64,000 bases of DNA from Actinocorallia sp. API 0066 (GTDB taxonomy: Bacteria; Actinomycetota; Actinomycetes; Streptosporangiales; Streptosporangiaceae): assembly GCF_020991275.1 (NCBI RefSeq), contig NZ_JAJLQY010000010.1, forward strand, positions 62,001 through 126,000. Reading direction: 5' to 3'. This document shows positions 4,011-49,182 of this stretch, in pieces (the stretch's first letter is position 1; each line of letters opens with the position of its first letter). The notes under the pieces are model-generated. The model did not search any database. It was not told the origin of the DNA and worked only from the letters and a program-made list of their open reading frames with translations. Both the position numbers and the translations under genes were made by a program.

Positions 4011-4871
4011 TCAGTGCAGGTGGTACTGGCTGGGCCCGGCCATCCGCTGGAGGCGGGCGATGCGCTCCTCCATCGGCGGGTGCGTCGAGAACAGGCGGGC
4101 GAGGCCGCCGCCGGTGAAGGGGTTGGCGATCATGAGGGCGCTGGTGGACTCCAGTTGCGGGTCGGCGGGCAGCGGCCGGGCCCGCACCCCGCCGGAGATC
4201 TTGCGGAGCGCGTCGGCGAGCGCCAGGGGGTCGCCGGTGAGTTCGGCGCCCGAGGCGTCGGCCTGGTACTCGCGGGTGCGGCTGATCGCCATCTGGATGA
4301 CCCCAGCGGCGAGCGGGCCGAGGAACACCATGAGCAGCGCGCCGAAGATCCCGGGCCCGCCACCGCGGTCGCTGCGGCCCGGCATGAACATGCCGAGGTA
4401 CGTCAGGTAGGTGATGACGGTGGCGAGCGCCGCCGCGAACGACGAGATGAGAATGTCCCGGTTGTACACGTGCGAGAGTTCGTGCCCGATGACCGCGCGC
4501 AGCTCGCGCTGGTCCAGCATCTGGAGGATGCCGCGCGTCACGCAGACCGCCGCGTTGCGGGGGTTGCGGCCGGTGGCGAACGCGTTGGGCTGGGGCGTCT
4601 CGGAGACGTACAGGCGCGGCATGGGCTGCCTGGCCTGGGTGGACAGCTCCCTGACCATCGCGTACAGCCCCGGCGCCTCCACCTCGCTGATCGGGTGCGC
4701 CCGCATCGACCGCAACGCGATCTTGTCGCTGAAGAAGTAGGCGACCCCGTTGCTCACGAGCGCGATGATGAGGGCGATCGTCAGCCCGCCGCGCCCGCCG
4801 AGCCCCCACCCGACGAGCAGCATCAGCGCCGAGAGGGCGCCGATGAGCAACGCCGTCTTGATGCCGTTCAT
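4011..4871 (-). CDS. htpX: HtpX-type membrane zinc metalloprotease (M48)
   Basis: A 286-residue M48 protease of the cytoplasmic membrane that degrades misfolded membrane proteins with FtsH. Two N-terminal membrane helices (about residues 7-47) precede the catalytic domain. The zinc site is intact: HELSH at 130-134 and the third ligand Glu201 in REYQAD. Further hydrophobic segments lie at about 143-162 and 175-195. It lies 83 bases downstream of nuoN2 on the same strand. As I recall, htpX follows the second nuo cluster in Streptomyces too, so the linkage looks ancestral. Confidence 0.95.
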
Positions 4872-4954
4872 GTCCGAGAACCTCCCCTTGGCCCTACGTC
4901 CGAAACAACGGAGGGACCTGGGGAAACGTTCCGGGCGAACCGCCCAGGCGCGCG

Positions 4955-6436
4955 CTACCCGACCGAGAGGGTGGCGTGCAGGAGCAGGTTCGGCAGTACG
5001 GACAGCACCACGGCGCCCAAGGCCGTCGCGCCCAGGGCGATCCGGTACGGCAGCACGGAAGGCAGCGCCGCCGTCTCCCCCGACGTCTCCGGCGCGAAGA
5101 GCCGCACCGCCCAGACGAGGTAGTAGTACAGCCCGATGACGGTGTTGACGGCCATCACGACGGCGAGCCACACGACGGGTCCCGTCATGACCGCCTCAAA
5201 GACGACGACCTTCGCGATGAGCCCCATGATGCCCGGAGGCAGCCCGGCAAGGCAGACGAGGAAGAACGCGAGCGCCAGGCCCGCCGCAGGGCTGCGCCGC
5301 ACGAGCCCCCGGTAGGAGGCGAGGAGGTTGCCTTCCGACCCGTCGCCCTTCCGGCTGGCGAAGGCGGTGACGACGACGAAGGCGCCGAGGTTCATCACCG
5401 CGTAGAAGCCGAGGTATCCGGCCATCGCCGCGACGGCGGCGGTGATGGTCTCCTCCCCGACGGCGAGCGGCGCCAGCATGTACCCGGACTGCGCGACCGA
5501 CGACCACGCGAGCAGCCGCAGGGCCTGGGTCTGCCGGAGCGCGAGCACGTTCCCGACGGTCATGGTCAGCGCCGCCAGGACGGCCAGGAGCGGCCCCCAG
5601 GAGTCCCCGTGGCCGGGGAAGGCGAGCGCCACGACGAGCCCGAGCCCGGCGAACCCGCCGGCCTTGGAGACGACCGACAGGTAGGCCGCGACGGGCAGGG
5701 GCGCGCCCTGGTAGACGTCGGGCGTCCAGGCGTGGAAGGGCACGGCAGCCACCTTGAACCCGAGCCCTGCGATCACCATGACGATCCCGGCCGTCAGCAC
5801 GGGTTCCAGCGCCGAGGGCACCGAAGCGGTGGCGATCCTGTCGAAGTGCAGCGCCCCGGTCGCCCCGTACACGAGGCTCACGCCGAACAGGAGGACGGCA
5901 GCCGAGGCGACCGACACCAGCAGCAGCTTCACAGCCGCTTCGGTGGAACGCCCGTCCCCCCGCCGCAGCGCCACCAGGGCGAACACCGGCAGGGCGAGCG
6001 TCTCCAGGCCGACGACCAGGAGGACGAGGTCCCGCGCGGCCACCAGGGTGAGCACACCCGTCACGGACGAAAGCAGCAGGAAGCAGTACTCCCCCGCAGG
6101 CGCCTTCGCCAGCGAGACGTCCGTCAGCGACAGCAGCACCACGAGCAGGGCGGACGCCAGGATGATGCCCTGGAAGACGAGCGTGAAGTTGTCCGCCGAG
6201 TACGAGCAGGAGGCGAGCCCGTCGCCGCGCAGCGTGGGCGGCACGCAGAAGGTGCGCCGCACGTCGCCGCCCGCGAGGGTGAACACCGAGACGAGCCCGG
6301 CGAGGAGCGCCCCCGCCGTCGCCCAGCCCAGCACCCGCGCGCCGACGTCGAACGCCCCGGCGAGCAGCACCGCGACGGCCGCCACCGCGGTGACGAGCAC
6401 GGGCGCGACGGCCGCGTAGTCGATCTGCTGAATCAT
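4955..6436 (-). CDS. nuoN2: NADH-quinone oxidoreductase-type subunit N, second cluster
   Basis: Multi-pass antiporter-like proton-pumping subunit of 493 residues and the last gene of the second complex I cluster. The conserved Glu of TM5 ([11 protein letters not shown]) and Lys of TM7 ([14 protein letters not shown]) are present, as is the family motif TPDVYQGAP. The ATG at 6436 overlaps the stop of nuoM2 (ATGA). It is shorter than the copy at 35484-37067 and differs in its loop sequences, so it is an old paralogue and not a recent duplicate. Confidence 0.95.
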
Positions 6437-7920
6437 GATCCGGCTCCGATCAGCGCCCGCACCGGGCCGTCCGTGAGGGCCAGCAGGACCTTGGGCCACA
6501 GCCCGACGAGCAGCACGCAGACGATCAGCGGCGTCCAGGCCGCCCACTCGGCGGTCTGGACGTCGGCGACGACCTCGCCCGTCCCGGACCGGCCGTGGGT
6601 GATCTTCCGCAGCAGCCGCAGGAAGTAGGCGGCCGTAAGCACGGCTCCGATGGCGGCGACCACCATGAGGACGAGGAAGGTGTCGCGCGGGAGCCCTTCG
6701 GCAGGCGAGTAGGCGCCCACGAGCGCGAGCATCTCGCCCCAGAACCCGGCGAGGCCGGGCAGTCCGAGGGAGGCGACGCAGGCGAACGTCAGGACGGACG
6801 CCAGGCGGGGCGCGCGGGCGAGCATGCCGCCTCCGAGCGCCGCGAGGTCGCCGGTGCCGTACCTGTCCTTCACCGAGCCCGCGACGAAGAACAGCAGGCC
6901 GGTGATGAGCCCGTGCGCGATGTTGCCGAACAGCGCGGCGTTGAGCCCGGCCGGGGTGAGGGTGGCGATGCCGAGCAGCACAAAACCCATGTGCCCGACC
7001 GACGAGTACGCGATCATCCGTTTCAGCTCGGTCTGCGCCAGGCAGGCGAGCGCCCCGTACACGATCCCGACGACGGCGAGCACCCCGAGCCAGGGCGCCC
7101 AGTACGCGGCGCCCTCCGGCAGGGCCGGGACGGCGATCCGCACGAACCCGTACGTGCCCATCTTCAGCAGGACGCCCGCCAGCAGCACCGAGCCGACCGT
7201 GGGGGCCTCGGTGTGCGCGTCGGGCAGCCAGGTGTGCAGCGGCCACATCGGGGCCTTCACGGCCAGTCCGAGGCCGATCAGCGCGAACGCCGTCACCTGG
7301 ATGCCGTGGGTCAGGCCGTCGCCGTGCGCCTCGGCGAGCGCGACCATGTCGAACGTGCGCGCGTTCCAGCCGAGCAGGACGAGCCCGGCGAGCAGGACGG
7401 CCGATCCGAGCAGCGTGTAGAGGATGAACTTGTAGGCGGCGTGTCGCCTACGCGGCCCGCCCCACAGCGCGATGATCGCGTACATCGGCAGCAGGACGAT
7501 CTCGAAGAAGACAAAGAACAGGATGAGGTCGAGGGACAGGAACGTCCCGATCATCCCGACTTCGAGGACGAGCAGCAGGCTGGTGAGCAGCCGCGCGTCC
7601 TTCACCTCACGCCGTCCGAGGTAGACGAAGCAGAGGAACGTCAGCAGCGCGGTCAGAACGACGAGCGGCAGGGAGACCCCGTCGATGCCCAGGTGGAACC
7701 GCACGCTCAGGGCGGGGATCCAGGGCTCGTTCATCCGCTGCTGCATGCGGGCGGGGTCGGCGTAGTCGAACGCGGCGGCCTGGACGAGCGCCATCGCCAG
7801 CACGAACCCCGAGACGTAGCGCCCGAAGGTGAAGGGGTCGCGGGTGAGGAAACCTATCCGCGCGTAGGGCAGGACCGCCCCCAGGAGGGGGATCCAGAGC
7901 AGATGGACGAGGGTGCTCAT
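6433..7920 (-). CDS. nuoM2: NADH-quinone oxidoreductase-type subunit M, second cluster
   Basis: Antiporter-like membrane subunit of 495 residues. The proton-channel Glu (FVFFEIVLLPMY) and Lys ([19 protein letters not shown]) are conserved. It lacks the Ala/Lys-rich loop of about 25 residues seen in NuoM of the complete cluster. Start and stop both overlap neighbours by four bases, so it is coupled to nuoL2 and nuoN2. Confidence 0.95.
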   Translation of the reverse strand: MSTLVHLLWIPLLGAVLPYARIGFLTRDPFTFGRYVSGFVLAMALVQAAAFDYADPARMQQRMNEPWIPALSVRFHLGIDGVSLPLVVLTALLTFLCFVYLGRREVKDARLLTSLLLVLEVGMIGTFLSLDLILFFVFFEIVLLPMYAIIALWGGPRRRHAAYKFILYTLLGSAVLLAGLVLLGWNARTFDMVALAEAHGDGLTHGIQVTAFALIGLGLAVKAPMWPLHTWLPDAHTEAPTVGSVLLAGVLLKMGTYGFVRIAVPALPEGAAYWAPWLGVLAVVGIVYGALACLAQTELKRMIAYSSVGHMGFVLLGIATLTPAGLNAALFGNIAHGLITGLLFFVAGSVKDRYGTGDLAALGGGMLARAPRLASVLTFACVASLGLPGLAGFWGEMLALVGAYSPAEGLPRDTFLVLMVVAAIGAVLTAAYFLRLLRKITHGRSGTGEVVADVQTAEWAAWTPLIVCVLLVGLWPKVLLALTDGPVRALIGAGS

Positions 7921-9908
7921 GTCAGGGCCACCACCGCGAGGACGAGGAACACGGCTCCGGCGAGGAGGCCGGTGAGGTAGGTCTGCGGGTTGCCGTTCTG
8001 CGGCAGCCGCGCGAGCCGCCCGGCGAACCTGGTGACGGGCACGGACGCCTCCACGGCCCCGTCCACGGCGTGCGTGTCGATCCCCTTGACGGCCCTGGCC
8101 AGCAGCCGCACCGGGCCGACGATCGTGCGGTCGTAGAGTTCGTCCACGTAGAACGCCCGCTCGAAGGGACGGCGTAGGACGCCCAGCCTGAGCGCGGGGT
8201 CCTTGGCCGGGTCGTCACGCCACGCGTAGTAGACGGCGGCCGCGCCCGCGACGGTGAACAGCAGGCTCATCGCGGCGGGCGCCACATGCGGACGCAGCTC
8301 GGCCGACCCGAGGCCCGCGAACCCGAGGACGAGCGTCACCCCGGCAAGCAGCAGGACGGGCCAACGCATCAGTCCGGGTGCCTCGTGGGCCTCCCGCGCG
8401 GGTCCGAGGAAGGTGAGCAACCACGCGCGGGTCGAGTACGCGGCCGTCAGGGCGATCGTGACGAGCAGCGAGACGTACACCGCCCAGGACGCCCATCCAG
8501 GCAGGTCCCCGCCCCTGAGCGCGGTGTCCTGGACGTGCTCCAGCACCGCGTCCTTGGAGAAGAACCCCGATGTCGGAGGCACCCCTGCGAGGGCGAGGTA
8601 TCCGATCGTCATCGCGCCGAAGGTGTAGGGCATGGCCTTGGCGAGGCCGCCCATGTCGGCGAGGAGGTTGGACCCGACGGCGTGGATGACGCACCCTGCG
8701 GCGAGGAACAGCAGCGCCTTGAAAGCGCCGTGCGTCACCAGGTGGAACATCGCCGCCGACTTCGCGCCGACGGCCAGGCCCGCCGCCATGACGGCGAGCT
8801 GGCTGATCGTCGAGTAGGCCAGCACCCGCTTCAGGTCGACCTGGGCGAGCGCCGCGCAGGCCGACCCCAGCATCGAGACGGCCGCCATCAGGCCGAGGAC
8901 GGCCAGCGCCGCCGGGGCCGCGAGGAACACGTCGTAGAGCCGCGCGACGAGGTAGACGCCCGCGGCGACCATCGTGGCCGCGTGGATGAGCGCGCTGATG
9001 GGCGTGGGGCCCGCCATCGCGTCCGGAAGCCACGTGTGCAGGGGAAAGAGCGCGCTCTTGCCCGCGACCCCGCACAGCACGAGGAGGGCGGCGGCCAGGA
9101 CGGTGCCGGAAGGCAGGTCGGGCGCCTTGGCCAGCACCGTGGCGATGTCGAAGCTGCCCGCACCGAGGCCGAGCACGATGATGCCGAGCAGGAGTCCCGC
9201 GTCGCCGACCCGCGTCACGAGGAACGCCTTGACGGCGGCCCGCGAGCCCGTCCGCTCCTCCCAGTGGTGGCCGACCAGGAAGTACGAGCAGATGCCCATG
9301 ACCTCCCAGCCGACGTACAGGACAAGGAGGTCGCTCGCGTAGACGACGAGCAGCATCGCCGCCGTGAACAGCGACACGAACGCCGCGTAGGAGGAGTACC
9401 GGGGTTCGTCCCGCATGTACGCCACCGAGTACACCTGCACGGCGAGCGCGACAAGGCCGACGAGCACCCCGAGCAGCGCGGCGAGCCCGTCGACGCTCAG
9501 CCCTACGGTGATGTCGGGGCCGCCGGTGGGGATCGTCGTCAGGGCCGCCGTGCGGACGCCGGGGTCGAGCCAGGCGCCCAGGCCGATGACGATGGTGAGC
9601 CCGGCTGTGAGCACCGTAGGCAGCACCGCGTACAGAACGGGCCCGAGCGCGCCCCGAGCGCCGCCACCGGGGGCGAAGCCGGGCGCGGCCCGCCCCTCGG
9701 GGGGCACCGCCTCGCCCGTCACGTCGGGCTCGGCCTCCACGTGCGCCTCGGAGCCCGGCGCCTCGGTGGGCGGCACGGACGCGACGGGCGGCACCGAGGC
9801 GCGCAGCCCCACCTCCGCGAGCCTGCGCGTGGTCCAGGGGCCGAGCAGCAGCCCGAACAGGGCGCCGAGGAACGGCAGGGCGATCGCCTGCGCCGCGAGG
9901 ACGGTCAC
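7917..9908 (-). CDS. nuoL2: NADH-quinone oxidoreductase-type subunit L, second cluster
   Basis: Distal antiporter-like pump subunit of 663 residues. The TM5 Glu ([17 protein letters not shown]) and TM7 Lys ([19 protein letters not shown]) are present, and the C-terminal part contains the segment that becomes the lateral helix. Oddity: residues 38-86, between the first and second membrane helices, form a Pro/Glu/Ala-rich low-complexity insertion that I do not see in the NuoL of the complete cluster. The GTG start at 9908 overlaps the nuoK2 stop (GTGA), which places the start before the conserved first helix. Confidence 0.95.
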
Positions 9909-10228
9909 CGTGCCTCCAGGTCGGACTCGCGCAGGACGTCCTGCCGGTCCACGTCGATGTTCCCCCGGTCGCGGAACAGCAGGAGCACGATCGCCAGGCC
10001 GAGGCCGATCTCGGCGGCGGCGATGACGATCGTGAACAGCGCGAGCACCTGTCCGCCGTGCAGGACGTCGCGCAACCACATGTCGAAGGCGACGAGGTTG
10101 ATGTTGACGGCGTTGAGCATCAGCTCCGCCGACATCAGCACGAGGATCGCGTTGCGCCGCGCGAGCACCCCGTAGACGCCGACGGAGAACAGCAGCGCGG
10201 CGAACACCGCCGGGTAGGCGACCGACAT
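9905..10228 (-). CDS. nuoK2: NADH-quinone oxidoreductase-type subunit K, second cluster
   Basis: Three-helix membrane subunit of 107 residues (MrpC-like) that lies between the Q-module and the pump subunits. The two buried glutamates of the E-channel are visible, in [10 protein letters not shown] and in [11 protein letters not shown]. The ATG at 10228 shares one base with the nuoJ2 stop (TGATG), typical of tight coupling. The C-terminal tail ([20 protein letters not shown]) is longer than in the NuoK of the complete cluster. Confidence 0.95.
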
Positions 10229-10755
10229 CACCCCTCCTTCGGCGTCCGCGAGCCGCGGTCGGCCCTGGACTTCGACAGCACGATCGCGCCGACCAGCGCG
10301 GCGAGCAGCAGCACCGACAGCACCTCGAACGGCAGCACCCACTGCCGGAAGATCGCCGCGCCGAGCGCGTCGCCCGACCCGCCGCCCGGCTCCAGCTCGA
10401 TCCGCGCGTCCCGGAACCCGCGCCACAGCAGCGTCACGAGCACGACGGCGGTCGATCCGGCGACGAGCAGCGCCGCGAACCGGTTCCGCGAGTTCAGGCC
10501 CTCAGAGGGCCCCACAGGCGCGCGCGTGAGCATGATGCCGAACAGCAGCAGCACCACGATCGCGCCGACGTAGATGAGCACCTGGACCCACGCGACGAAC
10601 TCGGCCGTCAGCACCAGGTACATCCCGGCGACCGCGCCGAACGACACGACGAGCCACAGCGCCGCGTGCACGAGCTGCTTCGTCGTCACCGTGCAGACGC
10701 CGGCGCCCAGCGCGACGACGCCCAGGGCGGTGAACACGATCTCGGCGGCCGTCAC
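10228..10755 (-). CDS. nuoJ2: NADH-quinone oxidoreductase-type subunit J, second cluster
   Basis: Five-helix membrane subunit of 175 residues with the family signature [20 protein letters not shown], the pi-bulge TM3 region that links the quinone site to the proton path. The GTG start at 10755 overlaps the nuoI2 stop (GTGA). It is clearly shorter than the 255-residue NuoJ of the complete cluster, which carries a long polar C-terminal tail. Confidence 0.95.
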
Positions 10756-11225
10756 CGCAGCTCCTTCGGGGGGTCGGCGTTCGGCTCGTGCGCGGGCGGC
10801 GGCGGCACCGTCCACATCCACTCGCGCAGCCGGTCGCGCTCGTGGGTGAGCTCGGCGATGTCGTAGGCGGCGTACTCGAACTCCGGCGACCAGAACAGCG
10901 CGTCGAAGGGGCACACCTCGATGCAGATCCCGCAGTACATGCACAGCGAGTAGTCGATGGCGAACCTGTCGAGGACGTTGCGTGACCTGGCGCGCGCCGA
11001 GCCCTCGGCGGGCAGCGTCTCCTTGTGCGAGTCGATGTAGATGCACCAGTCCGGGCATTCCCGGGCGCACAGCATGCAGACGGTGCAGTTCTCCTCGAAC
11101 AGGGCGATGACGCCGCGCGAGCGGGGCGCGAGGTCGGGCGACACGTCCGGGTACTGCCGGGTGACGGAACGTTTCATCATGGTCCGCAGCGTCACCGCGA
11201 GACCCTTGGCGAGGCCGAGCTTCAC
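10752..11225 (-). CDS. nuoI2: NADH-quinone oxidoreductase-type subunit I, second cluster
   Basis: Peripheral ferredoxin-like subunit of 157 residues that carries clusters N6a and N6b. Both CxxCxxCxxxCP motifs are intact: Cys47/50/53/57 and Cys95/98/101/105. The GTG start at 11225 overlaps the nuoH2 stop by four bases. It has both clusters but no NuoE/F/G partners in the same operon, so electrons must enter it from another donor. Reduced ferredoxin from KorAB is the obvious candidate (inference). Confidence 0.95.
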
Positions 11226-12166
11226 AGGTCGGTCACCACCTTCACCACGCCGGTGAGCGCGAGTTGGGCCAGGGAGATCGGGACGAGCCAGACCCAGGCG
11301 AGGCGCTGTAGCTGGTCCTCGCGCATCCGGGGGAACGACACACGCACCCAGATGACGATGAACGCAAGGGCGAACACCTTGATGAGGGTCCAGGCGGCGT
11401 CCGGAAGCAGGGGGCCCTTCCATCCGCCGAGGTAGAGCACCGTCGTCAGGGCGCAGAGCACCAGGATCCCGGCGTACTCCGCGAGCAGGAAGAACGCGAA
11501 CCGCAGGCCGCCGTACTCGGTGTACGGGCCGAAGATGATCTCGGAGTCGGCGATCGGCATGTCGAACGGCGGCCGGCGCAGCTCGGCGAGGCCCGCGACG
11601 AAGAACACCGCCGCCGCGCCCGCCTGCCAGAACAGCCAGTACCAGCGCCACTCCTCGACGATCCCGGTGAGGCTGAGCGTCCCGGCCGCCATCGCGAACG
11701 ACGCGGCCGCCAGCACCATCGGCAGCTCGTAGGAGACGAGCTGGGCGGCCGACCGGATACCGCCGAGGAGAGAGAACTTGTTGGCTGACGCCCAGCCCGC
11801 CATGATCGAGCCGATGACGCCGATCCCCATGACGGCCAAGGCGAAGAACAGGCCGAGCGACAGATCTATCGCGACCTGCCCCGGACCCACCGGGATGACC
11901 GCGAGCACGACCAGGTAAGGCACCAGCGCGACACCCGGCGCGAGAAGGAAGATCCTGCGGTCCGCGCGCTCCGGGACCACGTCCTCCTTCTGCGCGAACT
12001 TCACGCCGTCCGCGATGAGCTGCGCCCAGCCGTGGAAGCCGCCCGCGTACATCGGGCCCAGCCGGTTCTGCATGTGCGCCATCACCTTGTGCTCGGTCTG
12101 CCCGATGAGCAGAGGCAGCACGAGGAAGGCGACGGTGACGAGGGCGAGCGCGACGACGTCACGCAT
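11222..12166 (-). CDS. nuoH2: NADH-quinone oxidoreductase-type subunit H, second cluster
   Basis: Eight-helix membrane subunit of 314 residues that shapes the quinone tunnel. Visible family features are [14 protein letters not shown] near the N-terminus, the acidic loop ([18 protein letters not shown]) and [16 protein letters not shown]. It lacks the C-terminal extension of about 100 residues found in the NuoH of the complete cluster. Its first eight bases overlap the end of nuoC2. Confidence 0.95.
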
Positions 12167-12710
12167 TGGGCCCCCAACCCTGCGGCACGCCCGGCGGAAG
12201 GTTCTTGCGCCGCGACGGGGCGCCGCCGCCTCCCTCGCCCGGCTCCTTGGCGCCCGGCCACGCCTTGGCCACGCGCGCCGCGAGCACGAAGTCCTTCCTG
12301 AGCGGATGGCCTTCGAACCCGTCGGGCAGCAGCAGCGGCTTCAGGTCGGGGTGGCCGTCGAAGACGACGCCGAACATCTCGAACGTCTCCCGCTCGTGCC
12401 AGTTCGCGCCCCGGTACACCGTCACGGCGGACGCGAGCACGGGCTCCTCCTTGGGGACGAGCGTGCGCAGCAGGACGTGGTGGTGTCCGTCGAGGGAGTA
12501 CACGTGGACGACCACACGGAAGCCGTCTTCCAGCTCGTCCACGCCGGTGAGCCAGTCGAAGTAGCCGCAGTCCAGATCGTCGCGCGCGAAGGTGAGCGCG
12601 GTAAGCCACTCCGTCGGAGCGACATCGACCGTCAGCTCGCCCAGGTTCGTCGCCGCCTCCGCGTCGGGGAAGCGTGTGACGAACGCGTCGCTCAACTCCT
12701 CGGGTGTCAT
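12159..12710 (-). CDS. nuoC2: NADH-quinone oxidoreductase-type subunit C, second cluster
   Basis: Peripheral subunit of 183 residues (30-kDa family). The signature [20 protein letters not shown] and the following GHPLRKDF are clear. In canonical clusters nuoD comes next. Here nuoC2 runs straight into nuoH2 with an eight-base overlap, so no nuoD2 exists, and the protein is too short to be a NuoCD fusion. The C-terminal Gly/Pro-rich tail (about 30 residues) is not part of the family domain. The ATG at 12710 overlaps the nuoB2 stop (ATGA). Confidence 0.93.
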
Positions 12711-13387
12711 TCGTCACCCATCCCCGGGATGATCGAGTAGTCGACGGCCCCGAGCGGTCGTGTCCGCACCGACGCCAGGCCCTGCGTAGGCGCGTCGTTC
12801 TCCGCGAGCAGCTCGGGCACCGGCTGGAGCGGACGGCGCAGCACGCTGGCGGGCGCGTCCCACACCGGCGGGGGCGGCTGCGTCCCGGCGAACCGGGCGG
12901 CCGGGTCCTCACCCGCGATCTTCTCCTGGAGCTTGACGATCCCGTGCAGCAGCGCCTCGGGACGCGGCGGACACCCCGGGACATAGACGTCAACGGGGAT
13001 GATCTGGTCGACGCCCTTGGTCACGCAGTAAGAATCCCAGTAGGGGCCGCCGCAGTTGGCGCACGACCCGAACGAGATCACGTACTTCGGCTCCGGCATC
13101 TGCTCGTACAGGCGCTTGACGGCGGGGGCCATCTTGTCGCTCACCGTGCCCGACACCACCATGAGGTCGGCCTGGCGCGGCCCGTGGGCGAACGGGATGA
13201 CGCCGAGCCGCATGAAGTCGTGCCGCGCCATCGACGCCGCGATGAACTCGATCGCGCAGCAGGCGAGCCCGAAGTTGAACACCCACAGCGAGTAGCGGCG
13301 CCCCCAGTTGAGCACGAACTTGACCGGCTGGGGCGCGAGCCGCGACAGCGGTCCCACGGTCGGCTCGGGGAGGTCCACTACACCCAT
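12707..13387 (-). CDS. nuoB2: NADH-quinone oxidoreductase-type subunit B, second cluster
   Basis: Subunit of 226 residues that carries the terminal cluster N2. All N2 ligands are present: adjacent Cys43/Cys44 (LACCAIEF), Cys109 (FGSCANCGG) and Cys139 (GCPPRPE). Extra cysteines at 112 and 121 are not seen in NuoB of the complete cluster. A Pro-rich C-terminal tail of about 60 residues follows the domain. The ATG at 13387 overlaps the end of nuoA2 by ten bases. N2 normally sits at the NuoB-NuoD interface, so retention of N2 without nuoD2 is the key oddity of this cluster. Confidence 0.95.
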
Positions 13388-13797
13388 GTGAGCACTCCCT
13401 TCTTGTAGGCGTACAGGAGTCCCGTGGCGAGGAACCCCAGGAAGACGAACATCTCCCCGAGCGTCAGCGCGCCGTACCCGGCGGCGCTGAAGATGGTCGC
13501 CCACGGGAACAGGAAGATGGCGTCCACGGCGAACACCACGTACAGGTACGTGAAGACGTAGTAGCGGACATGGGACTGAGCCCACCCCTCCCCGACGGGG
13601 TCGATGCCGCACTCATAGGTGGTGAGCTTCTCGGGGGTGGGCCGGTTCGGACGCAGCAGCCGGTTCGCGGCCAGGCCGCCCGCGACGATCCCTCCTCCGA
13701 TCAGGAAGAGGACCGCGACGAGGACATAGGAGCCGTAGTAGTCGCGCACCAGGGCACTGTAGACCGTCGTGGGGAACCAGTGCCGCGCGCGGTGCAT
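13378..13797 (-). CDS. nuoA2: NADH-quinone oxidoreductase-type subunit A, second cluster
   Basis: Three-helix membrane subunit of 139 residues and the first gene of the ten-gene minus-strand cluster. The NuoA signature [20 protein letters not shown] and the acidic helix [14 protein letters not shown] are clear. It is longer than its paralogue because of an N-terminal stretch ([21 protein letters not shown]), so a later start is conceivable. The 71 bases to the divergent gene at 13869 must hold both promoters. Confidence 0.93.
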
Positions 13798-13868
13798 CCA
13801 TCTTTACGGATCAATGGGACAAACATAGAGTCTCGCCAGGAACACGGGTTATACGGGGTGGTGCGGTC

Positions 13869-15317
13869 ATGGCACAGGGTCCGGAGCAGCAGGGTCCGGA
13901 ACAAGCGGGTTGGCAGCCGCCTGCCCAGGGATGGGGCGCGCCGCAGCCGCCTCCCCAGGGCCCGCACGGGCAGCCGGGACAACCGGGACAACCAGGTCAG
14001 CCAGGCCATCCGGGGCACCCGGGTGTCCCCGGCCAGCCTGGACAGCCGGGCACACCGCCCCCGTGGAGGCCCCCGCCGTTCCAGCAGCAGCCGCCCGGCG
14101 GCCCGTACGGGCAGCCCCCCGGCGGCCAGTTCGGGCAGCCGCCCGGAGGGGGATTCGGACAGCCGCCGTTCCCCGGCCACACGCCGCCGGGCATGTTCCC
14201 GCCCGGCGCCCAGGGCCCGCAGGGGCCGCGCCGGAGCCGCAAGCCACTGCTCGCCCTCCTCTCGGCGGTCGGGGCCCTCGTCGTCGTTCTGGCGGTCGTC
14301 GCGCTGGTCGTGGCGACGGGCGGCGACGACCGGCCGAAGGTCGCGACACCGCAGGAGAAGCTCGCGCAGGCCGCCGACGCCATCGGCAAGGCCAAGGGCC
14401 TGCGCTACACCGGCGACTTCACCTCCGACACGCTGCCCGTGCAGGCCGACCTCTCGGTGACGCACGCCGGCACCGCGTCGGGCACGCTCACCATCCGCGG
14501 CCAGGTCATGGACATGATGCTGCTCGACGGCGACATGTACGTGAAGGCGAACAAGGCGTTCTGGCTGACGCAGCCGGGCATCACCGAGGGCGTCGCCCCG
14601 GATTACGCCGACAAGTGGGCCAAGGCGCCGCTCGCGCTGCGCGGCTTCGACATCCGCGCGCTGCTCACCCCGGCCGCTCTCGGCCAGGCCGTCGGGCAGG
14701 CGACGCCCGCCGTCGTGCCGACGGGGCAGCCGGCCACCCAGGACGTAGGCGGCAGGCCCGCCCTGACGTTCGAGGGCGCCAACAACCAGTACCTCGTGAC
14801 GAACATCGCGCCCTACGAGGTCCTCCAGATCCGCGCAGGCGGCGAGGACTCCTTCGCGTTCACCGTCGCGGCGCTGGACGCGGGCCAGATGGACACGCTG
14901 TACTCCGGCCTCACCCAGAAGGTGAAGAACGAGCTTGTGGGGGCGCTCGACCCGGCCTCGACCGTGAGCTACGTGAACAAGGCGACGAGCACGAACTGCT
15001 CGGTGTCCGGCTGCACGATCCGCCGTACGCTCAGCAACACCGGCGCCGCCGCCTGGGTGAAGTACCACGCGGCCATCTGGAAGCAGCGGGAGGGCGGCAC
15101 CGAGCTGGGCACGTGCACCCGGACGGTCAAGCTGGGCAAGGGCACGCGGACGCTGGAGTGCCGGATCAGCAGCTCGGGCTGGAGCTCGTGGGTGCGCGCG
15201 ATCCCGCCGGGCACCAAGAGCACCTACTACTTCCAGGGCTGGGTGAAGGTCGAGTCGGTCTCCGGCGCGCGCGCCGCGACGTTCGCCTCGCAGATCGAGA
15301 AGGAGCGCACCTCCTGA
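13869..15317 (+). CDS. membrane-anchored protein with Pro/Gly/Gln-rich cytoplasmic tail and large external domain
   Basis: A 482-residue type II membrane protein of unknown function. Residues 1-123 are a low-complexity tail of Pro, Gly and Gln; residues 34-62 read as collagen-like G-Q-P/G-H-P triplets and residues 75-100 as a PPGG(x)GQ repeat. RRSRK then precedes one membrane helix at about 127-150, so the tail is cytoplasmic and the remaining 330 residues are outside. The outer part begins like an LppX/LprG-type lipid-binding or sensor domain (DAIGKAKGLRYTGDF, then alternating beta strands) and contains four cysteines in its second half that could form two disulfides. It is divergent from nuoA2 and 606 bases ahead of korA. 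Role unknown. Confidence 0.7.
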   Translation: MAQGPEQQGPEQAGWQPPAQGWGAPQPPPQGPHGQPGQPGQPGQPGHPGHPGVPGQPGQPGTPPPWRPPPFQQQPPGGPYGQPPGGQFGQPPGGGFGQPPFPGHTPPGMFPPGAQGPQGPRRSRKPLLALLSAVGALVVVLAVVALVVATGGDDRPKVATPQEKLAQAADAIGKAKGLRYTGDFTSDTLPVQADLSVTHAGTASGTLTIRGQVMDMMLLDGDMYVKANKAFWLTQPGITEGVAPDYADKWAKAPLALRGFDIRALLTPAALGQAVGQATPAVVPTGQPATQDVGGRPALTFEGANNQYLVTNIAPYEVLQIRAGGEDSFAFTVAALDAGQMDTLYSGLTQKVKNELVGALDPASTVSYVNKATSTNCSVSGCTIRRTLSNTGAAAWVKYHAAIWKQREGGTELGTCTRTVKLGKGTRTLECRISSSGWSSWVRAIPPGTKSTYYFQGWVKVESVSGARAATFASQIEKERTS

Positions 15318-15923
15318 CCTGGAGGTGAGTCCTCGCTTTCCCGGAGGTGATTCCGGGCCGAGCGGCAGCGGCCGTCTCCCCGTTGAGCCGGCCGCTCCGC
15401 GGTCCCTGACGCCCCCGTTCCCCACCCCGAGGTGAGGGCGATCATGGGGCCGACCCTAGACACCGCGGGGCGGACTCGTTCCGACATTCCATGAAAAACC
15501 GGCGTTAAATCCACCTAGCCTCACTCAGCGTCACCACGGGGCACACAGGGAGACGCGAATCACACGGGACGCCCCGACGGGCAGGGCGGGCAGGAATCCC
15601 ACGCAAGCGGTTCGGTACATTGGTACCGCACTGTTCGGCTCACGGCGCGGGGTCCTCAGTGCCCGGACGAGCACGGCCTCGGCGTGGCCGGTCCCAGCTC
15701 ATCCGGGTCGTCCTAACATGAACACAAAGCCCTAGCAGCCCTCCCGCCCCGGGCCACCCTCAGCCCGCGGCGTCAGAGTTGCGCGCGAGAAAGGCCGTCC
15801 TCCGTTGACCGAGCGGAGCGAGTTCCCCGCACACCCAGCACTGAGCGTCACGGTGCCCTGCGCCGCGTCCCTGACGCACGTCCCCGTGGCCCACGTCCCC
15901 ACGGCTCACGCCGAGGAGGCGCA
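15318..15923 (+). promoter_or_regulatory. 606-bp intergenic region and leader of korAB
   Basis: No convincing gene is present on either strand. Two hairpins after the membrane-protein stop (arms CCCGGA 15341-15346 / TCCGGG 15353-15358, and AGCGGCCG 15367-15374 / CGGCCGCT 15389-15396) could end its transcript. A small palindrome lies at 15613-15628 (listed separately). The last part holds an unusually strong ribosome site, GAGGAGG at 15913-15919, before the GTG of korA. The length of the region suggests a regulated promoter or a long leader for korAB. Confidence 0.5.
15613..15628. promoter_or_regulatory. inverted repeat upstream of korA
   Basis: Perfect six-base arms CGGTAC and GTACCG flank the four-base centre ATTG. 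It lies about 300 bases before korA in a gene-free stretch. It could be an operator, but short palindromes of this size also occur by chance; the assignment is tentative. Confidence 0.3.
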
Positions 15924-17765
15924 GTGACCAAACAGGTCCAGCAGCTCGACCGCGTCATCATCCGCTTCGCCGGCGACTCCGGCGACGGCATGCAGCTGAC
16001 CGGCGACAGGTTCACCGCAGAGACCGCGGAGTTCGGGAACGACATCTCGACCCTGCCCAACTACCCGGCGGAGATCCGCGCCCCTGCCGGCACCATCCCC
16101 GGCGTGTCCAGCTTCCAGCTGCACTTCGCCGACCACGACATCCTCACCCCGGGTGACGCGCCCAACGTCCTCGTGGCGATGAACCCGGCGGCGCTCAGGG
16201 CCAACATCGGCGACCTCCCCAAGGGCGCCGACGTGATCGTCAACACCGACGAGTTCAGCAAGCGCAACCTGGCGAAGGTCGGCTACGCGGCGAGCCCCGT
16301 GGAGGACGGCTCGCTGGACGACTACCGGGTGCACGCCATCCCGCTCACGTCCATGACGGTCAAGGCCCTGGAGGACTTCGACCTGTCCAAGAAGGACGCC
16401 GAGCGGGCCAAGAACATGTTCGCCCTCGGGCTGCTTTCGTGGCTGTACCACCGGCCGGTCGAAGGCACGATCGGCTTCCTGGAGCGCAAGTTCGCCAAGA
16501 AGCCCGAGATCATGAAGGCCAACGTCGCGGCCTTCCAGGCGGGCTGGAGCTTCGGCGAGACGACCGAGGACTTCGTGACGTCCTACGAGGTCAAGCCCGC
16601 GACGCTGGAGCCGGGCCTGTACCGGCAGATCACCGGCAACACCGCGCTCGCGTGGGGCCTGGTCGCGGCGGGTGAGCGGTCGGGGCTCGACGTGTTCCTG
16701 GGCTCCTACCCGATCACCCCCGCCTCGGACATCCTGCACGAGCTGTCGAAGTTCAAGAACTTCGGCGTCCGCACGTTCCAGGCCGAGGACGAGATCGCGG
16801 CGGTCGGCGCGGCGCTGGGCGCCTCGTTCGGCGGCGCGCTCGGCCTGACCACCACGTCGGGCCCCGGCGTGGCGCTGAAGGCCGAGACGATCGGTCTGGC
16901 CGTCTCGGTCGAGCTGCCGCTGCTCATCGTCAACGTGCAGCGCTCAGGGCCGTCCACGGGCATGCCGACCAAGACCGAGCAGGCCGACCTGCTCCAGGCG
17001 ATGTTCGGCCGCAACGGCGAGTCGCCGGTGCCGATCATCGCCCCGCTGTCGCCCGCCGACTGCTTCTACGCGGCGATCGAGGCGGCGCGGATAGCCGTCA
17101 AGTACCGGACGCCGGTCTTCATCCTCTCGGACGGGTACCTCGCCAACGGCTCCGAGCCCTGGAAGCTGCCCGAGGTGGCCGACCTCCCGGTGATCGAGGC
17201 GGATTTCGCCGCGCCGGACCAGGAGGACTTCCAGCCGTTCAGGCGCGACCCCGAGACGCTCGCCCGGCCCTGGGCCGTGCCGGGCACCGCGGGCCTGGAG
17301 CACCGCATCGGCGGCCTGGAGAAGGCCGACGGCTCGGGCAACATCTCCTACGACCCGGCCAACCACGACCTCATGACGCGGCTGCGCCAGGCCAAGGTCG
17401 ACGGCATCGCCAACGACGTCGAGCCGCTGCGGGTCGACGACCCGGACGGCGACGCGCGCGTCCTCGTGCTGGGCTGGGGCGGCACCTACGGGGCCATCTC
17501 GGCGGCGGTCCGGCGGGTGCGCAAGGCGGGCGGAAAGGTCGCGCAGGCGCACGTGCGGCACCTCAACCCGTTCCCCGCCAACATGGCCCAGGTCCTGAAG
17601 TCCTACGACAAGGTGGTCGTGCCCGAGATCAACCTCGGGCAGCTCGCCACCCTGCTGCGCGCCAAGTACCTGGTCGACGTGGTCAGCTACAACCGCGTCC
17701 GCGGCCTCCCGTTCAAGGCCGAGGAACTCGCCGACGTGATCCGGGATGTGATGCACAGTGACTGA
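15924..17765 (+). CDS. korA: 2-oxoacid:ferredoxin oxidoreductase subunit alpha (fused gamma-alpha)
   Basis: A 613-residue subunit of 2-oxoglutarate (or related 2-oxoacid):ferredoxin oxidoreductase, which oxidatively decarboxylates the acid to acyl-CoA and reduces ferredoxin. The gamma domain comes first (GDSGDGMQLTGDRF near residue 20, to about 190). The alpha domain follows, with the family block GSYPITPASDILHEL near 260 and SGPSTGMPTKTEQADLL near 340. The GTG start at 15924 follows a strong GAGGAGG. It overlaps korB by eight bases. In actinomycetes this enzyme works in an oxygen-tolerant TCA variant; placement next to a complex I cluster without an NADH module suggests that its ferredoxin feeds respiration (inference). 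Confidence 0.95.
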   Translation: MTKQVQQLDRVIIRFAGDSGDGMQLTGDRFTAETAEFGNDISTLPNYPAEIRAPAGTIPGVSSFQLHFADHDILTPGDAPNVLVAMNPAALRANIGDLPKGADVIVNTDEFSKRNLAKVGYAASPVEDGSLDDYRVHAIPLTSMTVKALEDFDLSKKDAERAKNMFALGLLSWLYHRPVEGTIGFLERKFAKKPEIMKANVAAFQAGWSFGETTEDFVTSYEVKPATLEPGLYRQITGNTALAWGLVAAGERSGLDVFLGSYPITPASDILHELSKFKNFGVRTFQAEDEIAAVGAALGASFGGALGLTTTSGPGVALKAETIGLAVSVELPLLIVNVQRSGPSTGMPTKTEQADLLQAMFGRNGESPVPIIAPLSPADCFYAAIEAARIAVKYRTPVFILSDGYLANGSEPWKLPEVADLPVIEADFAAPDQEDFQPFRRDPETLARPWAVPGTAGLEHRIGGLEKADGSGNISYDPANHDLMTRLRQAKVDGIANDVEPLRVDDPDGDARVLVLGWGGTYGAISAAVRRVRKAGGKVAQAHVRHLNPFPANMAQVLKSYDKVVVPEINLGQLATLLRAKYLVDVVSYNRVRGLPFKAEELADVIRDVMHSD

Positions 17766-18786
17766 CGCCCTCGCGCTCGTGCCCAAGAGCGACCTTCCGC
17801 TCAAAATGAAGGATTTCAAATCCGACCAAGAGGTGCGGTGGTGCCCCGGATGCGGGGACTACGCGATCCTGGCGGCGGTTCAGGGCTTTATGCCCGAGCT
17901 GGGGATCAAGCGGGAGAACACGGTCTTCGTCTCGGGGATCGGCTGCTCCTCGCGGTTCCCGTACTACATGAACACCTACGGGTTCCACTCGATCCACGGG
18001 CGTGCCCCGGCTATCGCGACCGGCCTTGCGTCGGCCCGGCAGGACCTGTCGGTGTGGGTCGTCACCGGTGACGGCGACGCGCTGTCCATCGGCGGCAACC
18101 ACCTGATCCACGCGCTGCGCCGCAACGTCAACATCAAGATCCTGCTGTTCAACAACCGGATCTACGGGCTGACCAAGGGCCAGTACTCGCCCACGTCCGA
18201 GACGGGCAAGGTCACCAAGTCCAGCCCGATGGGCTCGGTGGACAGCCCCTTCAACCCGATCTCCCTGGCGATCGGCGCGGAGGGCGCGTTCGTCGCCCGG
18301 ACCCTCGACTCCGACCGCCAGCACCTCCAGTCGGTGCTGCGGGCCGCGGCCGCGCACCAGGGCGCGGCGCTGGTGGAGATCTACCAGAACTGCAACATCT
18401 TCAACGACGGCGCCTACGAGCCGCTCAAGGACGCCGAGCGGCGCGACGACATCACCCTGCGGCTGGAGCACGGCCAGCCGCTGGTGTTCGGTAAGGATCG
18501 TGACAAAGCGCTCATCCGCGACGGCTTCGGATTCAAGGTGGGTTCTCCGGATGATCCGGACGTCGTGGTGCACGACGCGCACACGCCCGACCCGTCGCTG
18601 GCGTTCGCGCTGTCCCGGCTCGACCAGCCCGCGTTCACCCATGTGCCGATCGGCGTGTTCCGCTCGGCGCCCCGCCCGTCCTACGACTCCCTGCTGAACG
18701 CGCAGGTGGCCGAGGCGAAGGCCCAGCAGGGCGAGGGCGACCTCGCGGCCCTGCTGGCCAGCGGGGACACCTGGCGCGTCGACTAG
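17758..18786 (+). CDS. korB: 2-oxoacid:ferredoxin oxidoreductase subunit beta
   Basis: Thiamine-diphosphate-binding subunit of 342 residues. The ThDP/Mg motif is present as GDGDALSIGGNH (104-115) followed by NN at 132-133. Cluster ligands are Cys29 and Cys32 (WCPGCG), Cys63 (GCSSR) and Cys212 (NCNIF), the usual set for the single [4Fe-4S] of the two-subunit enzymes. GTG start at 17758 inside the end of korA. A 12-bp-stem terminator follows, so korAB forms a two-gene unit. 2-oxoglutarate is the likely substrate by homology; pyruvate cannot be excluded. Confidence 0.95.
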   Translation: MTDALALVPKSDLPLKMKDFKSDQEVRWCPGCGDYAILAAVQGFMPELGIKRENTVFVSGIGCSSRFPYYMNTYGFHSIHGRAPAIATGLASARQDLSVWVVTGDGDALSIGGNHLIHALRRNVNIKILLFNNRIYGLTKGQYSPTSETGKVTKSSPMGSVDSPFNPISLAIGAEGAFVARTLDSDRQHLQSVLRAAAAHQGAALVEIYQNCNIFNDGAYEPLKDAERRDDITLRLEHGQPLVFGKDRDKALIRDGFGFKVGSPDDPDVVVHDAHTPDPSLAFALSRLDQPAFTHVPIGVFRSAPRPSYDSLLNAQVAEAKAQQGEGDLAALLASGDTWRVD

Positions 18787-47150: not shown

Positions 47151-47827
47151 GGCGCCTCCCATCCCTTCTCCTTGGCCAGCTCAAGGCCGACCACGGATTC
47201 CGGGCCCGCCTGGACGCCCTCGTTCGCGCGTCCGTCGGGGAATCCGGCGAGCACGCGGGACGCCTGCTTGAACGTGCAGAGCGAATCCGGGCCGCGCGTG
47301 GGCGGCACCGGGCGTCCGGCGCGCAGGTCGTCGACGAGTCGCTTGGCGGTCTCGGGGGTCTGGTTGTCGTAGAACTCCCAGTTGACCATCATCACCGGGG
47401 CGAAGTCGCAGGCGGCGTTGCACTCCAGCCGCTCCAACGACACCTTCCCGTCCTCGGTGACCTCGTCGTGCCCGACGCCGACGTGCTCGCTGAGCGCGTC
47501 CCAGATCTCGTCGCCGCCGAGCACCGCGCACAGCGTGTTGATGCACACGCCCACGTGGTAGTCGCCCATCGGCCGCCGCTTGTACTGCGTGTAGAACGTC
47601 GCGACGCCGGTGACCTGCGCGGGCGTCACGTCCAACACCGCCGCGCAGAAGTTCACACCCTCCTGCGTCACACACCCGTCCACCGACTGCACCAGGTGCA
47701 GCATCGGCAGCAACGCGCTGCGCGTCTTCGGATACCTCGCGATGATCTCCTTGGCGTCCTGCTCCAGACGCTGCCGGGTCTCCACGTCGTACGGGGAGCC
47801 CTCAGGGAAGTGGCTGGTGGAACTCAA
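47147..47827 (-). CDS. nuoE: NADH-quinone oxidoreductase subunit E
   Basis: Thioredoxin-like [2Fe-2S] (N1a) subunit of 226 residues. Ligands are Cys95 and Cys100 (GVCINTLC) and Cys136 and Cys140 (LECNAAC). The start is assigned to a rare TTG at 47827 because it overlaps the nuoD stop as TTGA, matching the coupling used elsewhere in the operon, and no ATG/GTG lies near the conserved N-terminus. The C-terminal extension of about 40 residues after the fold is unusual in length. Confidence 0.94.
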
Positions 47828-49182
47828 CGGTCGACACCTCCCATCACGGGGTCGAGGGACGCGACGGCGGCGATGACGTCGGCGACGTAACTGCCCTCGC
47901 ACATCGCGGCCGTTGCCTGAAGGTTGACGAAGGACGGGTCGCGGAAGTGCGCCCGGTGCGGGCGGGTGCCGCCGTCGGACACCACGTGCGCGGCGAGTTC
48001 GCCGCGGGGGGACTCCACCGCCGCGTACGCCTGCCCGGCGGGCACCCGGAACCCCTCGGTCACCAGCTTGAAGTGGTGGATGAGGGCCTCCATGGACTCA
48101 CCCATGATGTGCCCGATGTGGGCCGGCGAGTTGCCCATGCCGTCCGTGCCGATCGCGAGCTGCGCGGGCCAGCCGATCTTCTTGTCCTCGATCATCACCG
48201 GGCCGTCCTTCGCCGAGCCCTTGGTGAGCCGCTCCACACACTGCTCGACGATCTTCAGCGACTCCTCCATCTCGGCCATCCGGACGAGATAGCGGCCGTA
48301 CACGTCGCAGGTGTCCTGCGTGTGCACCTCGAAGTCGTACGTCTCGTAGCCGCAGTACGGCTGCGTCTTGCGCAGGTCCCACGGAAGACCTGCGCTGCGC
48401 AGCACCGGGCCGGTGACGCCGAGCGCCATACAGCCCGTGAGGTCGAGGTAGGCGACGTCCTTGGTGCGGGCCAGGTAGACCGGGTTCGCGTCCAGCAGCT
48501 TGCGCAACTGCCCGAACCGCTCCGGCATGCGCTCAAGGTAGGCGCGCAGCTTCGCGATCGCGGCAGGCCCGATGTCCTGGGCGACACCACCCGGACGGAT
48601 GTAAGCCATGTTCATCCGCAGCCCGGTGATCTCCTCGAACAGGTCGAGGGTGTACTCGCGCTCGACGAACCCGTTGAGCATCACCGTCGTCGCGCCCAGC
48701 TCAAGGCCGAACGTGGCGATCGCGACGAGGTGCGAGGAGATCCGGTTGAGCTCCATCATCATCACCCGGATGACGTTGGCCCGCTCGGGGATCTTGTCGG
48801 TGACGCCGAGCAGCTTCTCCACCGCGAGGCAGTACGCCGTCTCGTTGAAGATCGGCGCGAGGTAGTCCATCCGGGTGCAGAACGTGGTGCCCTGCGTCCA
48901 GGTGCGGTACTCCATGTTCTTCTCGATGCCGGTGTGCAGGTAGCCGATGCCGACCCTCACCTCGTCGACGGACTCGCCGTCGAGGGTGAGGATCAGCCGG
49001 AGCACGCCGTGCGTCGAGGGGTGCTGCGGGCCCATGTTGACGACGAGGCGCTCGTCGTCGGCCGCGTCCTTGGCGCCCGCGACGACCTCGTCCCAGTCGG
49101 ACCCGGCGAGGTTGAACACCTTGCCTTCGGCGGTGCCGTCGTCGGTGGCGCCCGCACTGTAGGCGTCGTAGGTGGTGGTCAT
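47824..49182 (-). CDS. nuoD: NADH-quinone oxidoreductase subunit D
   Basis: The 49-kDa-type subunit of 452 residues that forms the quinone headgroup site with NuoB. The signature [15 protein letters not shown] places the quinone-contacting His at about residues 54 and 58, and the [16 protein letters not shown] block follows. It is the only nuoD in the window, so it may also have to serve the second cluster. ATGA overlap with nuoC. Confidence 0.97.

Follow-up and report, generated by a model that had tools for sequence, protein, structure and literature searches.

To our knowledge, the Q-module of complex I (NuoB, NuoC, NuoD and NuoI) is normally held to be inseparable from NuoH and the membrane, and membrane subunits anchor the known NuoBCDI modules as well as the hydrophilic modules of group 4 [NiFe] hydrogenases. 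Cyanobacterial and chloroplast NDH-1, which lack NuoE, NuoF and NuoG, are ferredoxin-fed. The 11-subunit complex I of Desulfitobacterium hafniense combines the Q-module with a membrane arm and has no NADH module, and its description calls the direct donor of NADH-module-less complex I an open question (PMC11238625). In Streptomyces, nuoD2 lies apart from the otherwise contiguous nuo2 genes (SCO4599-4608), which one of the two sources suggests to form one operon (PMC3765725, PMC8388888).

Here we analyse the nuo2 locus of Actinocorallia sp. API 0066, contained in a stretch of 64,000 nucleotides (hereafter the window; C2:62001-126000 of genome G000 in our numbering) that also holds a korAB gene pair. 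This locus has the same gene set as Streptomyces nuo2 and shows no essential difference from it. The encoded complex, Nuo2, resembles the D. hafniense enzyme (PMC11238625) in its composition and is unlike it in that NuoD is unlinked, the quinone-site Tyr and a NuoH Glu are replaced, KorAB is encoded nearby and the membrane arm is lost in some lineages. Judged by quick trees, such loss, with NuoB2-C2-I2-D2 kept, occurred in at least 4-5 lineages.

A complete 11-subunit set with an unlinked nuoD2

The genes nuoA2-B2-C2-H2-I2-J2-K2-L2-M2-N2 form one overlapping operon on the minus strand of the window (13797-4955), with an overlap of 1-10 bases between every adjacent pair and a single stop per frame. 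The subunits of this system, together with the NuoD of the complete nuo1 operon, are as follows:

13378-13797, minus: nuoA2, 139 residues, FAVD in place of the canonical FDxE membrane motif
12707-13387, minus: nuoB2, 226 residues, N2 cluster ligands intact, GGPYWDSY signature
12159-12710, minus: nuoC2, 183 residues, assigned with NCBIfam
11222-12166, minus: nuoH2, 314 residues, Ile where E. coli has Glu216
10752-11225, minus: nuoI2, 157 residues, GTG start, two [4Fe-4S] motifs and an N-terminal helix segment
10228-10755, minus: nuoJ2, 175 residues, GTG start, assigned with NCBIfam
9905-10228, minus: nuoK2, 107 residues, assigned with NCBIfam
7917-9908, minus: nuoL2, 663 residues, GTG start, assigned with NCBIfam
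6433-7920, minus: nuoM2, 495 residues, assigned with NCBIfam
4955-6436, minus: nuoN2, 493 residues, assigned with NCBIfam
G000:C2:186541-187695, plus: nuoD2, outside the window, open frame, above an NCBIfam NuoD cut-off
47824-49182, minus: nuoD1, part of the complete nuo1 operon, position 87 Tyr, the sole nuoD within the window

An initial annotation of this DNA had described an unbroken overlapping chain with no room for nuoD, and the overlap of all ten genes indeed rules out a nuoD concealed within the cluster. No nuoD, nuoE, nuoF or nuoG lies between nuoA2 and nuoN2, where the whole cluster was read; nuoE, nuoF and nuoG were not searched for elsewhere in the genome. The top NCBIfam match of each of the ten proteins is the expected Nuo subunit; NuoB2, K2, L2 and M2 pass the curated cut-off, and A2, C2, H2, I2, J2 and N2 fall below it, which marks them as divergent Nuo members. 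All four N2 cysteines are present in NuoB2 and two CxxCxxCxxxCP motifs (N6a/N6b) in NuoI2, so that the electron-carrying ligands are as intact as had been annotated. Antiporter-motif Glu and Lys are visible by eye in NuoL2, NuoM2 and NuoN2. Also by eye, a Pro/Ala-rich insertion was seen near the N-terminus of NuoL2 (about 9650-9812, minus).

The annotation had further held that NuoD was lost, and had offered an unlinked nuoD2 as one way out. Only the latter survives: PF00346 matches two genes in the genome to which the window belongs (7.0 Mb in 44 contigs), NuoD1 and NuoD2, the second lying about 111 kb from the nuo2 cluster. This match rules out a genome without any nuoD2 and completes the 11-subunit set (A-D, H-N), with ten subunits encoded in the window and NuoD2 outside it. 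The "missing NuoD" anomaly is explained by this unlinked nuoD2 and is already known from Streptomyces. The gene is flanked by pan/nad genes and by folK/folB/folP/ftsH (names by reading), and NuoD2 was encoded at this fol/pan locus in the genomes whose NuoD2 surroundings were read. At one locus of Fodinicola feengrottensis (L227, 18323-19458), nuoD2 stands just past nuoN2, in opposite orientation, and is split over two frames, possibly by a frameshift or sequencing error.

Among 120 genomes of the window's family, a NuoD2 orthologue (at least 63% identity) occurs in 73 and NuoH2 (at least 73%) in 63; both are found in 63 genomes, NuoD2 only in 10 and neither in 47, and NuoH2 never stands alone (Fisher p = 7e-24, kinship ignored). 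A class-level survey of 394 genomes (thresholds E<=1e-90 for NuoD2 and E<=1e-65 for NuoH2) gave NuoD2 in 129 and NuoH2 in 96, with 94 genomes having both, 35 NuoD2 only and two NuoH2 only, the last two being assemblies 72% and 80% complete.

This co-occurrence of the cluster with a dedicated nuoD2 speaks against a shared NuoD1, with Nuo2 as a hybrid whose subunits (L2, M2) serve as alternative parts of complex I, as proposed for Streptomyces. One study proposes such differential incorporation of NuoL2 and NuoM2 (PMC3765725), and the nuo1 operon, complete with its own NuoD (identified from translations), lies in the same window as nuo2. Yet NuoD1-type matches are only 36-45% identical to NuoD2 among the matches listed, position 87 differs, and reduced lineages have dropped the whole membrane arm, L2 and M2 included, while keeping B2, C2, I2 and D2; we regard sharing of NuoD1 as quite improbable.

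Repeated loss of the membrane arm

Two of the ten NuoD2-only genomes of the family are fragmentary (G020 has M2; G089 is without a korA or C2 match), and the other eight have neither H2 nor M2. In five of these (G101, G094, G057, G047 and G017), nuoB2, nuoC2 and nuoI2 stand beside korA, and no A, H or K-N was found there; the contigs of G065 and G029 end after C2 or inside B2, and the korA contig of G041 is too short. For the 35 class-level NuoD2-only genomes, only the DNA around korA was examined, so that sets elsewhere would escape. The flanks were informative in 25, the remainder being G154, G171, G222, G437 and G458 (which end at korA), G134, and the korA-less G176, G238, G296 and G402. 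B2-C2 lies beside korA in 22 of the 25 and not in three (G148, G132 and G232); 21 of the 22 look membrane-less (19 with I2; G065 and G461 end earlier), and G186 has A2 and is probably full. In G148, a single contig 100% complete, B2, C2 and I2 are intact about 36 kb from korA, accompanied by an A2 remnant at 40% and an H2 in three pieces, without J-N; G101 retains a 40-residue J2 remnant. In Actinosynnema pretiosum (L223), about 4.6 kb separate korB-korA from a following nuoB2-C2-I2-htpX block, and nuoD2 is at the fol/pan locus.

Assembly gaps are unlikely to account for the absent membrane arm: the assemblies of G269 and G148 consist of one contig each and that of G057 of three, and in many loci I2 comes immediately after C2.

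Several further arrangements were met in passing. G132 (L166) and G232 (L164) have nuoD2 and korAB, and their nuoB2C2I2 is not beside korA. In two loci from metagenome-assembled genomes (MAGs; L233, L247), B2-C2-I2 lies downstream of nuo1 with no korA within the available stretch, and a MAG titled Melainabacteria (L238) carries an actinobacterial korAB-nuoB2C2I2-htpX block, so that its record name looks wrong.

A wider scan of genome contigs, of which the best 80 of at least 593 candidate loci were analysed, revealed nuoD2 after C2 (A2B2C2D2 order) in 13 of those 80 loci, from Acidimicrobiia, Actinomarina, Egibacteraceae and similar records, some of them ending at contig edges. These 13 linked loci form one clade (SH-aLRT 100*) and served as outgroup of the NuoD2 tree. 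The simplest history would be a standard 11-subunit cluster followed by relocation of nuoD2 in Actinomycetia, the gene having presumably left the operon for the fol/pan locus early in that group. A MAG titled Bifidobacterium breve (L242) has an Acidimicrobiia-like linked nuo2; here, too, the record name looks wrong.

Rooted on the linked clade, the NuoD2 tree nests the membrane-less types within the full ones with at least four changes, five with G148, and an unrooted KorA tree gives five changes to the membrane-less type; these trees were quick, with long branches flagged and genomes of unresolved type excluded. The losses in G101 and G065/G269 are recent, since NuoH2 is present in other members of their genera. 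For Streptomyces nuo2, the accessible parts of the two sources mention neither a linked ancestor nor a membrane-less form, nor the Trp87 described below (PMC3765725, PMC8388888), and searches of the open-licence PMC literature turned up no account of a NuoBCDI-KorAB system lacking the membrane arm. The reduced form corresponds exactly to the Q-module NuoBCDI, or to the hydrophilic part of group 4 [NiFe] hydrogenases, and differs from them in that no membrane partner is encoded beside it and in that NuoD2 is without conserved Cys for a NiFe site.

Constraint on the reduced modules

The 31 membrane-less loci (29 with korA) were compared with 56 full and 13 linked loci. Membrane-less NuoB2 keeps the CC pair and the third Cys in 31/31 and the fourth in 30/31 (the miss lies at a contig edge), and both cluster motifs are present in all 28 NuoI2; for the full loci, the figures are 50/56 for the CC pair (six are cut short), 56/56 for the third and fourth Cys and, by pattern, 42/44 for both NuoI2 motifs. 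The ratio of nonsynonymous to synonymous substitution rates (dN/dS) is below 1 in 30/30 gene comparisons from eight membrane-less pairs (range 0.03-0.72). The membrane-less NuoD2 is faster evolving (median root-to-tip distance 1.83 vs 0.93 in the full type) and, to judge by these alignments, the module is constrained at its clusters.

Faster evolution, like the A2/H2 and J2 remnants of two genomes, would be expected if the membrane-less B2C2I2D2 genes were decaying, functionless leftovers. Against this stand the cluster cysteines kept in about 30 loci across many families, the dN/dS below 1 in every comparison and the frames that have stayed open in several members of a single genus, and decay accordingly has little chance of being the explanation.

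A second possibility is that the membrane-less B2C2D2I2 docks on the ordinary membrane arm of nuo1 (NuoAHJKLMN) as a swappable front end. A PF00146 search found one full-length NuoH in 37 of 38 genomes of this kind and none in G176 (78% complete), with additional NuoH-like matches of 97-140 bits in six (G057, G309, G148, G130, G047 and G138); that of G057 clusters with its own NuoB-like and NuoM-like matches. The parts expected to face a membrane arm have nevertheless diverged. The NuoB loop, which we take to line the quinone chamber in contact with NuoH, is at least half identical to the window's in all assessable full loci (50/50) and all linked loci (13/13) but in only 3 of 31 membrane-less ones, namely the recent losses G269, G065 and G101, and is hence lost in 28. 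The NuoI N-terminal helix, presumably the segment lying on the membrane, is at least half identical in 43/43 full but 1/24 assessable membrane-less loci; since only 4/11 linked loci pass this helix test, it is weaker than the loop test. Docking on nuo1 is unlikely in our estimation, and the pattern fits a soluble electron-transfer module, as predicted from these alignments, better than either decay or docking.

The acceptor pocket

All 48 aligned NuoD2 proteins (11 full, 37 membrane-less or unresolved) carry Trp at position 87 in Nqo4 numbering, and 47 of them keep His38; NuoD1 has Tyr at position 87. Trp87 is likewise present in 13/13 linked NuoD2, vs Tyr in the 19 assignable NuoD of other phyla, a count that leaves out L258, L260 and L265 (no motif), L250 (match outside the NuoD motif) and L227 (two frames). 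Trp87 as a consequence of nuoD2 unlinking is ruled out by its presence in the linked proteins. The best solved relative of NuoD2 is NdhH of NDH-1 (6hum_H), which, unlike NuoD2, keeps the quinone-site Tyr.

At the position of Glu216 in E. coli NuoH (structure 7nyh), Ile or Val is found in 72 of 76 rows having NuoH2 as best match (the 72 include two copies of the window's own nuoH2); of the others, three belong to other phyla and retain Glu, and the remnant in G148 is without the site. Glu216 is kept in the NuoH1 rows (n=13). NuoA2 is of the FAVD type in 50 Actinomycetia rows, whereas the 13 linked forms keep FDVE. The canonical quinone-site combination (NuoD His38 and Tyr87, NuoH Glu216) is absent from Nuo2, and no Cys occurs among the positions conserved in at least 47/48 NuoD2, which sets it apart from group 4 hydrogenases. 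Judged by these residues, the predicted quinone site of Nuo2 is remodelled across the whole clade. The initial annotation had suggested a different acceptor site as a further alternative to the absent NuoD, which was partly right: although NuoD2 is present, Trp87 and the Ile/Val of NuoH change the pocket throughout the clade. These clade-wide changes provide a testable quinone-site variant.

KorAB as candidate electron donor

The presence of KorAB next door, as annotated, is confirmed (15924-18786), in divergent orientation to nuo2 with one open reading frame between:

13869-15317: open reading frame, 482 residues, between nuo2 and korA, no Pfam match
15924-17765, plus: korA, 2-oxoacid:acceptor oxidoreductase alpha-type subunit, 613 residues, passes TIGR03710
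17758-18786, plus: korB, 2-oxoacid:ferredoxin oxidoreductase beta-type subunit, 342 residues, best models below cut-off

Since korAB is on the plus and nuo2 on the minus strand, they are neighbours and separate operons. Family assignment does not single out a substrate for the predicted KorA/KorB enzyme; after the literature name of SCO4594, it is probably 2-oxoglutarate. Within the family, nuoC2 and korA share a contig in 66 of 69 nuoC2 genomes, with a gap of less than 6 kb in 66/66; in the other three, the two genes are split over contigs. As korA itself is present in 117/120 family genomes (118 matches including that of G082, E=2e-11, which is not a korA), KorAB does not need nuo2, and the constant proximity indicates that nuo2 goes with korAB and not the reverse. 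Of 29 named Actinomycetia-type loci for which some 10 kb of DNA before nuoB2 could be read, 19 showed korA. In S. coelicolor, SCO4599-4608 and SCO4594 are each more abundant than in S. lividans, according to two proteomic reports (PMC9739823, PMC8981147).

Several observations weigh against coupling of Nuo2 to KorAB and a quinone. Many korA-bearing genomes of the family are without nuo2, and the roughly 10 kb preceding nuoB2 showed no korA in 10/29 named Actinomycetia-type loci (Kribbella, Flexivirga, one Streptomyces, Fodinicola, two Micromonospora, Actinoplanes, Dactylosporangium and two membrane-less MAG loci), nor in any of the ten linked Acidimicrobiia-type loci with comparable upstream DNA, which indicates that proximity to KorAB is not an ancestral trait. 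Four nuoD2 genomes (G176, 78% complete, G238, G296 and G402) have no korA match at E<=1e-60. Trp87, as read from the alignments, argues against an ordinary quinone site. The same proteomic reports also record a rise of nuo1 proteins, so that the rise is not specific (PMC9739823, PMC8981147). Taken with the weaker helix test, the absence of korA beside nuo2 in 10/29 named and all assessable linked loci somewhat weakens both the main reading of Nuo2 and that of a soluble carrier serving KorAB (both set out below), and slightly strengthens docking on nuo1 and another donor. The nuo2-korAB link posited in the initial annotation, for which it had proposed a co-occurrence survey across actinomycetes, therefore stands within the family (66/66 within 6 kb) and fails as a general rule outside it.

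Electrons might instead reach Nuo2 from NADH via the NuoEFG of nuo1, or from another donor such as F420H2, F420 being present in Actinobacteria. The cluster is without NuoE/F/G, NuoC2 and NuoD2 give matches to the FpoC and FpoD models, respectively, that stay under the cut-off, and korAB is missing beside nuo2 in the loci just named; set against these is the korAB neighbourhood, which is constant throughout the window's family whether a locus is full or membrane-less. We give another donor about one chance in four.

Predicted function and neighbouring genes

The sequences show how the genes are arranged, that they co-occur and, within the family, are linked, that the cluster ligands are intact, that residues of the pocket have changed and that the membrane arm was lost repeatedly; the donor, the acceptor and proton pumping of Nuo2 are what we infer from this. 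It is probably an 11-subunit complex I without NADH module, fed by KorAB through ferredoxin or directly, with a remodelled pocket and a soluble module able to work alone. KorAB would oxidise a 2-oxoacid, probably 2-oxoglutarate. The electrons would enter NuoI2 via ferredoxin or directly and travel along the two [4Fe-4S] clusters of this subunit to the N2 cluster of NuoB2, and from there to an acceptor within the NuoB2/D2/H2 pocket. In membrane-bound forms, this acceptor would most likely be menaquinone, with protons pumped through L2/M2/N2. In membrane-less lineages, a soluble NuoB2-C2-D2-I2, mostly encoded beside KorAB, would have to hand electrons to a soluble partner. In a clustering of open reading frames around the loci that was confounded by shadow frames at high G+C, no conserved extra gene was recognised as candidate acceptor.

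More tentatively, at somewhat less than even chance, Actinobacteria may repeatedly have made an NADH-module-less complex I into a soluble NuoB2-C2-D2-I2 carrier serving KorAB, which would deliver low-potential electrons to a soluble acceptor at a Trp-lined pocket. If so, the Q-module would have a function of its own, the proton pump being an optional add-on, and the lineages with NuoB/C/D/I alone, ligands intact and mostly by KorAB, would amount to a natural experiment on that role. These lineages likewise point to a 2-oxoacid oxidoreductase as a possible source of electrons for at least one complex I that has no NADH module.

In G238, G296 and G402 (L170, L172 and L171, respectively), nuoD2 is at the fol/pan locus despite the absence of a korA match (E<=1e-60). 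G117 has two full korA copies (C6:494974 and C8:60484), 79% and 81% identical to the window's. One further gene follows nuoN2 in the window:

4011-4910, minus: htpX, HtpX zinc metalloprotease, above NCBIfam cut-off

Named Streptomyces loci mostly have korAB before nuo2 and htpX after it, and htpX is a conserved neighbour of the module that also follows nuoI2 in many membrane-less loci.

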